From Maribacter sp. (GTDB lineage: Bacteria; Bacteroidota; Bacteroidia; Flavobacteriales; Flavobacteriaceae): a stretch of 64,000 nucleotides of DNA. Positions within the stretch are counted from its first letter, which is position 1; every line of letters begins with the position of its first letter. Under the pieces are notes generated by a model that was given only the letters and a program-made list of their open reading frames with translations, did not search any database and had not been told where the DNA came from. The position numbers and the translations under genes are program-made. Location of the stretch: assembly GCF_016744255.1 (NCBI RefSeq), contig NZ_JADGES010000001.1:1-64000 (forward strand). The letters run 5' to 3'. Positions 14,674 to 20,342 of this stretch are shown piece by piece.

Positions 14674-16176
14674 ATGCGGGCCTATCTATACTTAATCCCA
14701 ATAGTATTTCTTATTATTTTTGGTTCTTCTTGCCGAAAAAATTTTGAGTACGCCCCTAGTTCTGGAAATTTATCTTTCTCTAAAGACACTGTGTATTTAG
14801 ACACTATTTTCAGCAGTATAAGTAGCAGCACTTACTCACTCAAAGTATATAATAAAACTAGAGATGATGTGGTAATACCAAATATTTCTTTGGAAAATGG
14901 AGAAAATAGCGGATATCGTTTAAATGTAGATGGTGTCGCCGGAAAATCTTTCCATAATATCCCTCTTTTTGCGAAAGACAGTCTCTTTATTTTTATTGAA
15001 GTAACACAGAGTATAACGACGCAGCAAAATTCCATACTATATACAGATGTTATTTTGTTTGATTCTGGTATAGACCTACAACAAGTCTCCTTGGTTACCC
15101 TAATTAAGGATGCCGTTTTTATTTACCCAACTACTTTAGGTAATAACACTAAAGAACAAATATTTATAGGTTTTAATGACTCTGGAAAAGAAATTCTTAC
15201 CAATGGAACTACCTTAAAAGGTGAGAAATTACATTTTACAAATAAAAAGCCTTATGTAATATACGGCTATGCATCTGTTCCTAGCGACAATGAACTCATA
15301 ATAGATGCAGGATCCAGAATACATTTTCACAAAAACTCAGGCCTTGTTGTTCAGGAAAAAGCCTCCATAAAGGTTAATGGGGTTTTAAGCCTAGACGAAA
15401 AACTACAAGAGGGAGAAGTTATTTTTGAAGGAGACCGCCTAGAACCAGAATTCACCAATATTCCTGGACAATGGAGTTCTATACGATTAAACAAAGGAAG
15501 CATTAATAATCTAATTAATTACGCTACCATAAAGAATGCCACTAATGGTATATATATAGAAGGTGATGTAGAAAACCCAGATAATAGATTACAAATAAAT
15601 AACAGCCAAATATACAACAGCAATAATATTAATTTATGGGGTAAAACTGCTAAAATAAATGCAACAAATATAGTCCTTGGTGGCGCGGGGAATACTAGCC
15701 TGTTCTGTAATTTAGGAGGAGAATACTCCTTTATACACGCAACTATTGCGAACTATTGGACTCATGGTTTTAGAGAAGGCTATGCACTTAAAATAGATAA
15801 TAAAAATGATTTAATTTCTTCTGAATTCAGTAATTGTATTATTGATGGCAATAAAAATGATGAATTAAATTTTGAACTTAATAAAGACGCACAATTTCAA
15901 ATTTTATTTACAAATTGTATAATTACCACTAGTGTAACAAACGAAGGAAATCCACTTTTAGATTTCTCTAACGAAGAATATTACGCTAATACCTACACCA
16001 ATGAAGATATTGGTTTTATAAACCCCAACAAGAACAATTTTACTATCAAAAACACTTCTTTCGCCATTGACAAAGGCAATCTAGAGAAGTATTCTCTAGC
16101 CCCTTTAGACTTAAAAGGAACCAACAGATTACCTCTCCCAGATATTGGAGCTTTTGAGTTCATTAAAAATAAATAA
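14674..16176 (+). CDS. Lipoprotein with right-handed beta-helix-like domain
   Basis: The 500-residue product starts with a lipoprotein signal (LIPIVFLIIFGSSCRKN). Residues 25-150 look like an Ig-like beta domain. The rest has short repeated strands typical of pectate-lyase-like parallel beta-helices (NNLINYATIKNATNGIYIEG, NRLQINNSQIYNSNNINLWG). The C-terminus ends LPLPDIGAFEF, a motif seen at the end of many such Bacteroidota surface proteins. No catalytic signature was recognised, so an enzymatic role on polysaccharide is only a possibility. It is the last gene of the 13.2-16.2 kb run. Confidence 0.75.
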   Translation: MRAYLYLIPIVFLIIFGSSCRKNFEYAPSSGNLSFSKDTVYLDTIFSSISSSTYSLKVYNKTRDDVVIPNISLENGENSGYRLNVDGVAGKSFHNIPLFAKDSLFIFIEVTQSITTQQNSILYTDVILFDSGIDLQQVSLVTLIKDAVFIYPTTLGNNTKEQIFIGFNDSGKEILTNGTTLKGEKLHFTNKKPYVIYGYASVPSDNELIIDAGSRIHFHKNSGLVVQEKASIKVNGVLSLDEKLQEGEVIFEGDRLEPEFTNIPGQWSSIRLNKGSINNLINYATIKNATNGIYIEGDVENPDNRLQINNSQIYNSNNINLWGKTAKINATNIVLGGAGNTSLFCNLGGEYSFIHATIANYWTHGFREGYALKIDNKNDLISSEFSNCIIDGNKNDELNFELNKDAQFQILFTNCIITTSVTNEGNPLLDFSNEEYYANTYTNEDIGFINPNKNNFTIKNTSFAIDKGNLEKYSLAPLDLKGTNRLPLPDIGAFEFIKNK

Positions 16177-16257: not shown

Positions 16258-17040
16258 TTGGGTCAATTCTTATTAGCATTACCTAATTTGCATCTAAACA
16301 AAATCCATTTGCACTATAAATACACCATAATAGATTCCAATGCAACTTCCAATTTGCAATTACAGCATTACATGGAAGACTATGGTGATTTTACGTGCAT
16401 TAATATTTCAAAAAACAAAAAAGAAGGACTACATAGTATTCTTAAGTTTTTGCCAGAGGTTGTTATTATTAACCTAAACGAAAACTCCGAAGAGTATTTT
16501 AGTATGATTACAGAGTTACACCAGTATTTAGAAAAATTACCCATATTTATAGGAATAGCAAAAAATAAAAATTTTGCTTACAATGCTATTAAAAATGATT
16601 TCTTTGATTACTGGCTACAACCTTATAACGAATATGAGATATTAAAGTCGCTCCTTAAATTAAAAAAGAAACTTCCAAAACAAGAAGTACCACAAACATT
16701 ATGTTTAAAATCTTATAGTGATTTTCAATATTTAAACACAAACAACATACTTTATTTAAGAGCAGATAATAATGCTACTGATTTTCACATGAAAGATGGC
16801 ACGATTAATAATGCCTATAAAACACTTAAAACATTTGAAAGTCAATTACCTCCTAATTTTGTTCGTATTCACCAAAGCTACATTGTAAACACCAATTACG
16901 TATCTAGAATAAATTATGGTAAATCTATTTGTGCTTTACGCCTAGTAAAAGTACAACTACCTTTCTCTAAATCTTACAAGATAAACGTAGACCAATTAAA
17001 AAAAGTACTATCTAGCAAAACCATTTCTTCGCTTAACTAA
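16258..17040 (+). CDS. LytTR-family DNA-binding regulator with degenerate receiver domain
   Basis: The N-terminal half (about 20-135) follows the receiver fold: YTIIDSN as strand 1, VVIINLNEN as strand 3, LPIFIGIAKN as strand 4, and YWLQPYNEYEIL where the conserved Lys region should be. The phospho-acceptor Asp is Asn in INLNEN, and the usual Lys of KPF is replaced, so phosphorylation control is unlikely. The C-terminal LytTR domain (about 150-255) is clear: ILYLRADNNATDFHMKDG, FVRIHQSYIVNTNYVSRI. No ATG precedes the receiver strand 1, so the start must be a TTG (16258, or 16309). The ATG at 16372 would delete strand 1. Confidence 0.85.
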   Translation: MGQFLLALPNLHLNKIHLHYKYTIIDSNATSNLQLQHYMEDYGDFTCINISKNKKEGLHSILKFLPEVVIINLNENSEEYFSMITELHQYLEKLPIFIGIAKNKNFAYNAIKNDFFDYWLQPYNEYEILKSLLKLKKKLPKQEVPQTLCLKSYSDFQYLNTNNILYLRADNNATDFHMKDGTINNAYKTLKTFESQLPPNFVRIHQSYIVNTNYVSRINYGKSICALRLVKVQLPFSKSYKINVDQLKKVLSSKTISSLN

Positions 17041-17109: not shown

Positions 17110-17151
17110 AACGCACTGATTATGCGTTATCTATACACACCTTCAATGTGT
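17110..17151. promoter_or_regulatory. Two short dyads with 7 nt centres upstream of the peptide gene
   Basis: AACGCA-N7-TGCGTT (17110-17128) and ACACA-N7-TGTGT (17135-17151) follow each other in the 285 bp gap between the LytTR gene and the peptide gene. Neither is followed by a T-run on the plus strand strong enough to call a terminator. They may be operator half-sites or small RNA hairpins. Confidence 0.35.
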
Positions 17152-17194: not shown

Positions 17195-17243
17195 AAATAC
17201 TCGTAGAACTAAGACAAATACTCACAGATAGCTACCAAATACT
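17195..17243 (+). promoter_or_regulatory. Three AAATACT direct repeats at exact 21 bp period
   Basis: AAATACT occurs at 17195, 17216 and 17237. LytTR regulators typically bind short direct repeats about 21-22 bp apart on one helix face. The last repeat lies about 42 bp upstream of a TAAATTTA -7-like box (17285-17292), placing the array just upstream of the -33 region. It is a candidate activator site for the peptide gene at 17326. Confidence 0.5.
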
Positions 17244-17325
17244 AGTATGTTTTTACATATAGACCTTTCCTACCCTCTCTTCTCTAAATTTACAATAGAA
17301 ATATAACCCGAAAACAATTTAGAAA

Positions 17326-17481
17326 ATGAAAAAAGTAGCAAGTATTGTAGCAGTAGCATTATTTACATTAGGTATGTTCGCAACAGCAGTTAACACAGGA
17401 GATTCAGATTGGTCAGATCTTGCAAATGCAGTAGCATGTGATGATTGCGACCCAGGACATACTGGTAGAGGCAATGCCTAA
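17326..17481 (+). CDS. Small exported peptide, 51 residues, unknown function
   Basis: This gene is too short for the ORF track. The ATG at 17326 opens MKKVASIVAVALFTLGMFAT, a textbook signal peptide with two Lys and a hydrophobic core, then a polar tail ending ACDDCDPGHTGRGNA before TAA. The predicted mature part is about 25-30 residues, acidic, with a CDDC pair that could form a disulphide or bind metal. It has its own upstream repeats, a strong terminator 16 bp after the stop, and sits between a LytTR regulator and a TPR sensor kinase. A signalling peptide or a small secreted effector are both possible. No homologue is recalled. Confidence 0.78.
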   Translation: MKKVASIVAVALFTLGMFATAVNTGDSDWSDLANAVACDDCDPGHTGRGNA

Positions 17482-17496
17482 AATATATACACATTT

Positions 17497-17531
17497 AAAA
17501 AGCCTTAAATTTTTAGTTTAAGGCTTTTTTT
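17497..17531 (+). terminator. Strong intrinsic terminator after the small peptide gene
   Basis: AAAAAGCCTTAAA (17497-17509) pairs perfectly with TTTAAGGCTTTTT (17517-17529) around a 7 nt loop, followed by more T. The kinase ATG begins 14 bp later, so the kinase needs read-through or its own promoter. A weak TACCTTTA box lies at 17533-17540. Confidence 0.88.
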
Positions 17532-17545
17532 ATACCTTTATTTTA

Positions 17546-19615
17546 ATGAAGGCACACACCATAATATCCAAAAATAAATTTCCGCAATACATTTGCTTTA
17601 TAGCCCTTTCTGTATTCTTTTGTGCCTGCACCAATAACAAAGGAAGCGAACAAAAAAAAATAAAAAAAACAGCTCAACAAGATAGTATTAGCACTTGGGT
17701 TGCCAACGCAGAAAACAAAAACCTACCGAAAAAAGAACGCTTAATTTTTTTAGAAAAAGCATACATCCTCAACAAGAAACAACCCAAAGATTCGAATGCC
17801 ACTAAAACGCTTTCCACAATATCCTACACCTATTACCAGCTAAAAGACACTTTACTGTTTAGAAAAACCAATAAAGAAACCATTGCACTTGCTAAAATAA
17901 GTAAAGACTCCACAACCCTTGCTAATTCGTATTGGGATTTGGGGGGTTATTTAAGTAATAAAAAAGTAAACGACAGCGCTTTTTTTTACTACCACAAAGC
18001 TCAAAAGATTTTTAGCGCTAAAAAGAATAATTACTTAGCTGGTAGAATGTATAATAGAATGTCCTGGATACAACAGAGCATAAATGATAATACAGGAGCC
18101 GAAATAAACTGTACAAAAGCAATAGAATTAATAAAACCGTTAAAAAAATACAATGAACTATCTAGCTGTTATTCCACTATGGGGGTCATTGCTAATAATT
18201 TAGGAGAGCAAGAAAAATCTATAGGCTATTATGAAGAAGCCTTTAAATACGACAATAAGAAACCTAAAAAACAAAGCCCTAATTATAGCATACTAAATAA
18301 TATTGGGGTAGTTTACAAGAGTAATAAACAATATGCTAAAGCTATACCATATTTTAAACAATTAACAGAAATAGATAGTTTTAGTATAAAAAACCCTACT
18401 CTATACGCAACTGCATTAAACAACTTAGCCTATGCTAATTACAAGCTAAATATCTTAGACAATGTAGAAGCTCAGTTAAAAAAAGCATTGAAAATTAGAA
18501 AAAACCTCGGTAATACAGCAAAAATAGCTGGTAGCCACTATAGCTTAGGAGAATATTATTTAACTAAAAAGGACACTGCAAAAGCGCATAAAGAAGCTTT
18601 ATTAGCTAAAAAAAATGCAGAATTAAGCACCGCTAACAAACGCATATTAGAAGCTCTAGAATTATTAGCATTAACCAACCCAACAAAAGCTGCAGATTAT
18701 CGCCTAGAGCATATACAATTAGCTGACAGATTACAAAAAGAAGAACGTAAAATACGTAATAAATTTGCTCGTATCCGTTTCGAGACAGATGAATTTATTG
18801 CTGAAAATCTATTATTAGAAAGACAAAAACAACTCTGGACTGGTATTGCAATTGGTCTTATTCTTTTGATTATTTCTATCTATATAATTGTTACACAACG
18901 AGCTAAAAACCAAAAACTTAAGTTCGCGCAGCAGCAGCAAACTAATAACCAAGAAGTATTTAATTTAATGCTTGCTCAAAAACAAAAAGTAGAAGAAGCC
19001 AAAAGACAAGAGCAAAAAAGAATATCCGAAGAACTACATGATGGCGTACTAGGTAAAATGCTAGGTGCTAGAATGGTACTTACTGGATTAAACAAAAAAG
19101 CCGACCCAGAGGCTATCGCAGAAAAAGCAAAAGCAATAGTAGCTCTAAAAGATGCAGAAGGCGAGGTAAGAGCAATTTCTCACGAATTAAGTCACTCTGC
19201 TTATCAGAAAATTCCTAACTTTATTAATTCTATAACAGAACTATTAGAGTCCCTTGCTAAAAACGCAAAAATTGAACAAGATTTTAATTTTGACAATACA
19301 ATGGATTGGGATACGTTATCAGGAGACATAAAGATTAATGTATATAGAATGATACAAGAATGTGTACACAACTCTATAAAACATGCAAATTGCTCCAAAA
19401 TTTACGTGAATTTTGAAATTCATAAATCGAATTTTGAAGTTACTGTTGGCGATGATGGACAAGGTTATGTCCTTAATAAAGAGAAAAAAGGAATTGGATT
19501 ACGAAATATTAAATCGAGAATGGAAAAACTTAATGGTCACTTTACTGTAGATACCGCGCCTGGTCGTGGCACCTCATTTTTCTTTAATATTCCTTTTTCA
19601 AAAGTACCTGAATAG
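17546..19615 (+). CDS. TPR-containing sensor histidine kinase (NarL/DesK type)
   Basis: The 689-residue protein begins with an export signal (YICFIALSVFFCACTNN), possibly an imperfect lipobox. Residues 45-400 are TPR repeats (for example DLGGYLSNKKVNDSAFFYYHKAQ), predicted periplasmic. One membrane helix follows near 428-447 (GIAIGLILLIISIYIIV). The HisKA_3 box RISEELHDGVLGKMLGA carries the phospho-His near residue 498. The HATPase domain has the N box MIQECVHNSIKHAN, GDDGQGY and GIGLRNIKSRM. It likely phosphorylates the response regulator 55 bp downstream. TPR sensors bind peptides or proteins elsewhere, which makes the neighbouring exported peptide a candidate ligand. Confidence 0.93.
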   Translation: MKAHTIISKNKFPQYICFIALSVFFCACTNNKGSEQKKIKKTAQQDSISTWVANAENKNLPKKERLIFLEKAYILNKKQPKDSNATKTLSTISYTYYQLKDTLLFRKTNKETIALAKISKDSTTLANSYWDLGGYLSNKKVNDSAFFYYHKAQKIFSAKKNNYLAGRMYNRMSWIQQSINDNTGAEINCTKAIELIKPLKKYNELSSCYSTMGVIANNLGEQEKSIGYYEEAFKYDNKKPKKQSPNYSILNNIGVVYKSNKQYAKAIPYFKQLTEIDSFSIKNPTLYATALNNLAYANYKLNILDNVEAQLKKALKIRKNLGNTAKIAGSHYSLGEYYLTKKDTAKAHKEALLAKKNAELSTANKRILEALELLALTNPTKAADYRLEHIQLADRLQKEERKIRNKFARIRFETDEFIAENLLLERQKQLWTGIAIGLILLIISIYIIVTQRAKNQKLKFAQQQQTNNQEVFNLMLAQKQKVEEAKRQEQKRISEELHDGVLGKMLGARMVLTGLNKKADPEAIAEKAKAIVALKDAEGEVRAISHELSHSAYQKIPNFINSITELLESLAKNAKIEQDFNFDNTMDWDTLSGDIKINVYRMIQECVHNSIKHANCSKIYVNFEIHKSNFEVTVGDDGQGYVLNKEKKGIGLRNIKSRMEKLNGHFTVDTAPGRGTSFFFNIPFSKVPE

Positions 19616-19670: not shown

Positions 19671-20342
19671 ATGGAAACAATCCGAATTTTAGCTATTGAT
19701 GATCACGAAATGACCCCTTTGGGATATAAATATATACTAGAGGGCACTGAATTTCCTAACTTTGAAGTTAAGGTAGATGTAGCCAGAGGGTTTGAACTAG
19801 GTAAATCTAAAATAGAATCTTCCGGACGCTCCACGATACATTATGATATTATTTTATTAGACATTCAACTTTTCCCTACCCACGCCCATGATGAGCGCAG
19901 TGGAGAAGATTTAGGTAAATTAGCTAGAGAAGTATCTCCTAATTCCAAAGTTGTTTTCATGTCCTCATTTAGCGATAGCTATAAAATTAATAGCGTTTTT
20001 AAAACTGTAGACCCAGATGGATATATGGTTAAATCTGAAATTGATGAACAATCTCTAATTGCCATGGTAGAAACCGTTGTTTCTAACCCTCCGTATTATA
20101 CCGCTGGAGCATTATCTGCTGTTAGACGAAAAATGGCCAATGACATCGTAATTGATGATGTGGACAAAAAAATACTATTCAACCTATCTGTAGGTGTGCG
20201 AACAAAAGACATTGCTCCATTAATTTCTGCCGCTATAACAACCGTAGAATCCAGGAAACGCCAATTAAAAACTCTTTTTGGCATAGATAACGGTAATGAC
20301 CTAGCCCTTATTGAGGAAGCAAGAAGGAGAGGCTTTCTTTAA
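19671..20342 (+). CDS. Response regulator, NarL/LuxR type
   Basis: This 223-residue regulator has a receiver domain with the acidic pair in LAIDDHEM, the phospho-acceptor Asp near residue 64 in IILLDIQLF, Ser-rich strand 4 (VVFMSSFSDS) and Lys in YMVKSEID. The acceptor lies about ten residues later than usual because of an insertion before it. The C-terminal LuxR-type helix-turn-helix reads VRTKDIAPLISAAITTVESRKRQLK. It pairs with the TPR kinase directly upstream. Its target genes are unknown. Confidence 0.92.
   Translation: METIRILAIDDHEMTPLGYKYILEGTEFPNFEVKVDVARGFELGKSKIESSGRSTIHYDIILLDIQLFPTHAHDERSGEDLGKLAREVSPNSKVVFMSSFSDSYKINSVFKTVDPDGYMVKSEIDEQSLIAMVETVVSNPPYYTAGALSAVRRKMANDIVIDDVDKKILFNLSVGVRTKDIAPLISAAITTVESRKRQLKTLFGIDNGNDLALIEEARRRGFL

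Follow-up and report, generated by a model that had tools for sequence, protein, structure and literature searches.

What is a heptamer doing in three exactly spaced copies between the gene of a LytTR-domain regulator and the gene of a small exported peptide in Maribacter sp.? The locus lies in the window (the whole 64-kb stretch of DNA that was analysed), and the earlier note on this DNA had read the repeats, together with two dyads just before them, as an activator site controlling the peptide promoter. The explanation favoured here, with a probability of roughly 0.8, takes the array for a LytTR operator of three sites whose single role is to activate the exported-peptide promoter, both binding and activation being putative. 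The question matters beyond a single genome: Flavobacteriaceae are dominant marine bacteria, the array gives experiments a precisely defined site in constant register with a promoter, the presumed regulator apparently has a single target, and a conserved peptide gene with pheromone-precursor-like repeats makes peptide communication in this family directly testable.

The repeat array and its conservation

Copies of AAATACT start at 17195, 17216 and 17237, in steps of 21 bp as the earlier note had reported, and this is the sole 7-mer in the 64 kb that forms an equally spaced triple at spacings of 10–60 bp. Markov-simulated windows contained 0.08–0.25 such triples per window over spacings of 10–60 and 0–0.025 at spacings of 20–22, the simulations and shuffles used throughout preserving composition and not relatedness. 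The exact pair AAATACT-N14-AAATACT occurs in the 3.6-Mb genome at this locus only, as two overlapping pairs. The triple of exact copies is a peculiarity of the window genome among orthologous loci; the array itself is what is conserved.

For the comparison, the DNA downstream of about 120 LytTR orthologs was oriented, which covered about 115 other Flavobacteriaceae genomes with orthologous loci, and a near clade (70 loci, LytTR protein identity of at least 50%) was distinguished from a distant clade (42 loci). Arrays were compared by anchored ungapped alignment; MAFFT, applied to four arrays, misplaced the third unit. Aligning the intergenic region across relatives, as had been proposed, shows the repeats conserved together with the genes and the 21-bp period kept. 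The near-clade array consists of three units of approximately AAWNCTC-N-YARAA, one every 21 bp, and its position matrix describes a degenerate unit of 14 bp, A-A-A/T-T-N-C-T-C-N-Y-A-R-A-A; the distant-clade unit, likewise taken from a position matrix, is TTTCACTC-N-YAGA. Autocorrelation upstream of the peptide gene gave z = 20.6 at lag 21 and z = 5.6 at lag 42 over the 70 near loci, and lag 21 was again the signal in the 42 distant loci (z 4.9–7.5). In either clade, each of the three units has a C as its sixth base, with 92–98% conservation. The near-clade core positions are 88–98% conserved; conservation is poor in the spacers and in the 35 bp that separate the array from the promoter box.

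According to the position matrices, units 1 and 2 are full and unit 3 retains only its first half. On the + strand of the window, unit 1 is AAATACTCGTAGAA (17195..17208, conserved C at 17200), unit 2 is AAATACTCACAGAT (17216..17229, conserved C at 17221), both placed by the matrix of the 70 orthologous loci with held-out testing, and the half unit 3 is AAATACTA (17237..17244, conserved C at 17242). Held-out tests exceeded the 1% shuffle threshold in 346/350 cases in the near clade and 201/210 in the distant clade; the best spacing of two held-out units was 21 bp in 135/140 and 65/84 cases, respectively, and shuffles had no clear preference. The near-clade matrix works only in part on the distant clade, because the half-site there reads TTTCACT instead of AAATACT; of the 42 distant loci, 24 lie above threshold and 34 have their match at the same position.

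The two dyads with 7-nt centres that had been taken as companions of the array are present, as AACGCA-N7-TGCGTT at 17110–17128 and ACACA-N7-TGTGT at 17135–17151 (together 17110..17151), and their membership in a conserved operator did not hold up. Only in congeners does a stretch of about 150–240 bp separate the LytTR stop from the array. Other near-clade genera have the repeats immediately behind the stop, and since the array begins 2 bp after the stop in most relatives, these have no room for the dyads. As part of the operator the dyads were rejected, being confined to the genus. They probably form weak hairpins where the LytTR transcript ends, and the second, with a T run behind it, may act there as a weak terminator.

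Promoter register

A -7 promoter box of the Bacteroidota TAnnTTTG type, TAAATTTA, lies at 17285..17292 on the + strand. Counted from the conserved C in unit 3, it stands 43 bp away. The box has the form TAGTTTAG in near loci and TAnnTTTG in distant loci, and its first T keeps this 43-bp distance in 57/70 near and 36/42 distant loci. Across both clades, the start of the array varies between 2 bp before the LytTR stop and about 500 bp after it, and the distance from the array to the peptide ATG ranges from about 125 to 350 bp; a distance that is fixed to the -7 box and variable to both flanking genes is the pattern expected of a transcriptional activator site. The stretch between array and box is nearly without information in the aligned orthologous loci, and therefore contains no conserved -33 element. 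In Flavobacterium psychrophilum the -7 box spans -12 to -5 (PMC9723704), which would place transcription start at about 17297 (predicted) and the three conserved C residues at about -97, -76 and -55.

The regulator and the four-gene module

The LytTR regulator is encoded at 16258..17040 on the + strand and combines a degenerate receiver domain with a C-terminal LytTR domain (Pfam PF04397, E 8.8e-18), for which LytTR structures of AgrA were also matched. Its true start is probably the TTG at 16309, and orthologs mostly align from about query residue 18. Relatives have GTG or TTG at the same place, and a conserved TAATTTGCA precedes it (16284–16311), which resembles the TAnnTTGY promoter motif (SM5) of F. 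psychrophilum (PMC9723704). The gene upstream (14674–16176) encodes a secreted, anchor-Q-like protein that matches no Pfam family. Orthologs of the regulator are found in 119 of 400 family genomes (E < 1e-25).

In a Foldseek search with the predicted model (pLDDT 73), the top match of the protein was full-length ComE (E 1.2e-10), and AgrA matched the DNA-binding domain; the best NCBIfam match was BtsR (E 7.3e-16), far below cut-off. The position of the phospho-acceptor is occupied by Asn in the window protein and in 92/120 orthologs (60/72 near and 32/48 distant), so that ordinary phosphorylation is unlikely. The receiver-like fold has moderate support from the model and the acceptor Asp of a canonical receiver is absent; the protein is in this respect a pseudo-receiver, this Asp having been lost in most orthologs.

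Downstream of the peptide gene lies a sensor kinase (17546..19615, + strand) with an N-terminal signal and a transmembrane helix, both assigned by eye, and TPR repeats, HisKA_3 and HATPase_c according to Pfam, followed by a response regulator (19671..20342, + strand; Response_reg E 3.9e-4) with an intact acceptor Asp and a LuxR-like C-terminus. In the DNA retrieved for each locus, the kinase gene was present downstream in 68/72 near and 42/48 distant loci, and the order LytTR gene, kinase gene, response regulator gene is kept in 10 of 10 wider neighbourhoods, including three of the distant clade with different flanking genes. Three distant loci (L110, L112 and L123) possess the LytTR gene and the array with the response regulator gene immediately downstream, and no peptide or kinase gene was found at these loci. 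Additional DNA between the kinase and response regulator genes amounts to about 4.5 kb in L175 (genome G001) and about 2.2 kb in L167 (genome G002).

The exported peptide

The peptide gene (17326..17481, + strand) encodes 51 amino acids, MKKVASIV...ACDDCDPGHTGRGNA, and is conserved in orthologous loci as a small signal-peptide or lipoprotein gene whose products belong to no Pfam or NCBIfam family above cut-off. By a loose pattern, 96 of 112 peptides carry a lipobox-like Cys; the window peptide has the look of an ordinary signal sequence (FATAVNT). An intrinsic terminator follows the gene at 17497..17529 on the + strand (hairpin -14.6 kcal/mol, z -5.5).

The C-terminus of the peptide is short and acidic, of the type TDGDxxxxxR or ACDDC...R, and in at least 14 loci it is tandemly repeated two to six times or more. 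In-frame C-terminal tandem repeats of 12–17 codons occur, for instance, in L037, L048, L051, L055, L071, L075, L084, L087, L095, L096, L097, L102 and L139, one example being TDGDDIPVSEREG in three copies; the repeats of L087 are separated by KR-containing linkers, and the repeat tract of L096 apparently shifts frame midway. With a signal sequence followed by several copies of a short C-terminus, these peptides recall multi-copy pheromone precursors, a resemblance of architecture.

Within the distant clade, L104, L109, L111, L116, L122, L124, L126, L129 and others have long 5' leaders before the peptide gene with recurrent palindromes (GAAGCTTC, TTGTGCACAA and ATGCGCGCAT) downstream of the -7 box, and the leaders in the loci scanned gave no Rfam match at gathering score. 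At L106, the peptide gene is apparently frameshifted after the lipobox, and a degenerate array at 21-bp steps persists.

One site per genome

Genomes were searched with a sequence-only array model, which was trained on 38 of the arrays that it finds, so that its sensitivity is circular and its specificity, that is, the lack of other sites, is not. The window site scored E 5.6e-9 and the next site in the same genome E 0.16. Among 60 relatives, strong matches (E ≤ 2.3e-8) occurred in the 12 genomes with a close LytTR ortholog, one in each and adjoining the LytTR gene. Similarly, 58 of 400 family genomes had exactly one match at E < 1e-4, and all 58 carry a LytTR ortholog; in 57 of them the array stands directly after the end of the LytTR gene. 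The exception (G334) has its array on a separate contig, near the contig end, and a truncated LytTR match, which is most simply explained by a contig break.

The suggestion that the same repeats might precede other small signal-peptide genes is not borne out in the window genome, given the score of its next site. An array before other genes was likewise rejected as a candidate: the second-best matches checked in two congeners fall inside coding sequence. The operator appears to be the only strong target of the LytTR regulator in the genome.

Interpretation and alternative explanations

The mechanism proposed for the locus would begin with LytTR domains binding all three direct repeats (about -97, -76 and -55), which follow one another at two helical turns and lie on the same side of the DNA. 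The bound regulator would then activate a promoter that has a -7 box and no conserved -33 element, and the resulting short transcript would encode the small exported peptide and end mostly at the intrinsic terminator before the kinase gene. The peptide would probably serve the neighbouring TPR sensor kinase as a signal or as the ligand that it senses, and this kinase would in turn phosphorylate the adjacent response regulator. On geometry, linkage, one-site-per-genome co-occurrence and fold, the LytTR protein is very probably the array binder, and activation by it is inferred from the position of the array and the missing -33 element. As a LytTR operator before the peptide promoter, the reading of the earlier note survives where the 21-bp repeats are concerned, by virtue of their conservation with the genes, period, -7 register and single occurrence beside the LytTR gene; the dyads and a recurrence before other peptide genes drop out of it. 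One observation counted against the favoured explanation is that the array persists at L110, L112 and L123, the loci at which no peptide gene was found; another is the loss of the acceptor Asp from the LytTR receiver in most orthologs.

The alternative that survives best, although it is unlikely, is that the LytTR protein binds the array and represses the peptide promoter. A precedent is CoxC, a LytTR regulator with three direct repeats that acts as a repressor (PMC11347149). The CoxC operator, however, overlaps the -35 box, whereas the last conserved half unit here ends at about -53, upstream of the promoter. Moreover, a promoter without a conserved -33 element is what would be expected under activator dependence, which argues against repression.

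Slightly less probable again is binding of the array by the LuxR-type response regulator, whose gene lies two genes downstream, in which case kinase, response regulator and peptide would form a loop and the LytTR protein would do something else. Linkage alone does not single out the LytTR protein, because the adjacent LuxR-type response regulator is equally tightly linked; the module conserves kinase and response regulator together, the response regulator keeps the acceptor Asp that the LytTR protein lacks, and its gene comes right after the array at L110, L112 and L123. Against this alternative, LuxR/NarL-type regulators usually have short inverted repeats as their binding sites. Three direct repeats at 21 bp are instead the known LytTR geometry (PMC4847170, PMC11347149), and the array begins just behind the LytTR stop in most loci.

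A role of the repeats as RNA, in a leader structure or riboswitch, is very improbable and was rejected: read-through from the LytTR gene could carry transcription into the intergenic array, but the array shows no tendency to fold (z +0.7), Rfam gave nothing at gathering score, and the -7 box stands downstream of the repeats. Chance repetition in intergenic DNA, which the AT-richness of the region and the shortness of a 7-mer might suggest, is already refuted by the comparative data, since the simulations, the conservation over about 115 loci, the held-out tests and the fixed register to the -7 box leave it practically no probability.

Comparison with known systems

A limited set of open-access literature yielded no defined LytTR operator for Bacteroidota and no such peptide quorum-sensing system for Flavobacteriaceae. 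Tentatively, and with rather less than even confidence, the locus may represent an undescribed Flavobacteriaceae family of peptide signalling, in which a LytTR pseudo-receiver and its dedicated three-site operator would drive a lipoprotein-like pheromone precursor, often with tandem short acidic C-terminal peptides. A periplasmic TPR histidine kinase, paired with a response regulator of its own, would sense this product.

In gene content the locus resembles ComCDE and AgrBDCA, the peptide quorum-sensing systems of Firmicutes, in which a LytTR regulator is likewise linked to a sensor kinase and to a gene for a small exported peptide, and ComE is the top structural match of the window protein. 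In contrast to those systems, the kinase of the window is of the HisKA_3/HATPase_c type with TPR repeats and not HPK10, the LytTR protein is not its evident cognate regulator as the kinase has a LuxR-type response regulator of its own, the LytTR receiver is without the acceptor Asp, the peptides are lipoprotein-like, and no dedicated exporter was identified. The LytTR Regulatory Systems (LRS; HdrRM/BrsRM) resemble the locus in combining a direct-repeat operator near the promoter with a LytTR regulator that does without classical phosphorylation (PMC6193735); they apparently differ in that no gene for a partner membrane inhibitor was seen at the locus with Pfam and NCBIfam, and no copy of the array was found before the LytTR gene itself.

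Published LytTR operators are direct repeats of 9–11 nt with gaps of 11–13 nt and no common sequence (PMC4847170), and the array agrees with this format and its period of about 21 bp, standing in a fixed register upstream of the promoter that it is predicted to control (57/70 and 36/42 loci). Operators of the Escherichia coli BtsR/YpdB type share the direct repeats and the exact 21-bp period, as in the YpdB site GGCATTTCAT-N11-GGCATTTCAT (PMC4847170), and BtsR is the best NCBIfam match of the window protein; unlike the present array, they have two sites instead of three, canonical phosphorylated receivers and transporter targets. The operators of RcoM1 and CoxC have three repeats (PMC11347149), imperfect and direct, about two helical turns apart as here, and RcoM1 activates from upstream of the promoter (PMC11347149). 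They differ in repeat sequence and serve gas-sensing regulators of cox genes, CoxC repressing from an operator over the -35 box, whereas the third unit of the window array is a half unit and its target is a small peptide gene.
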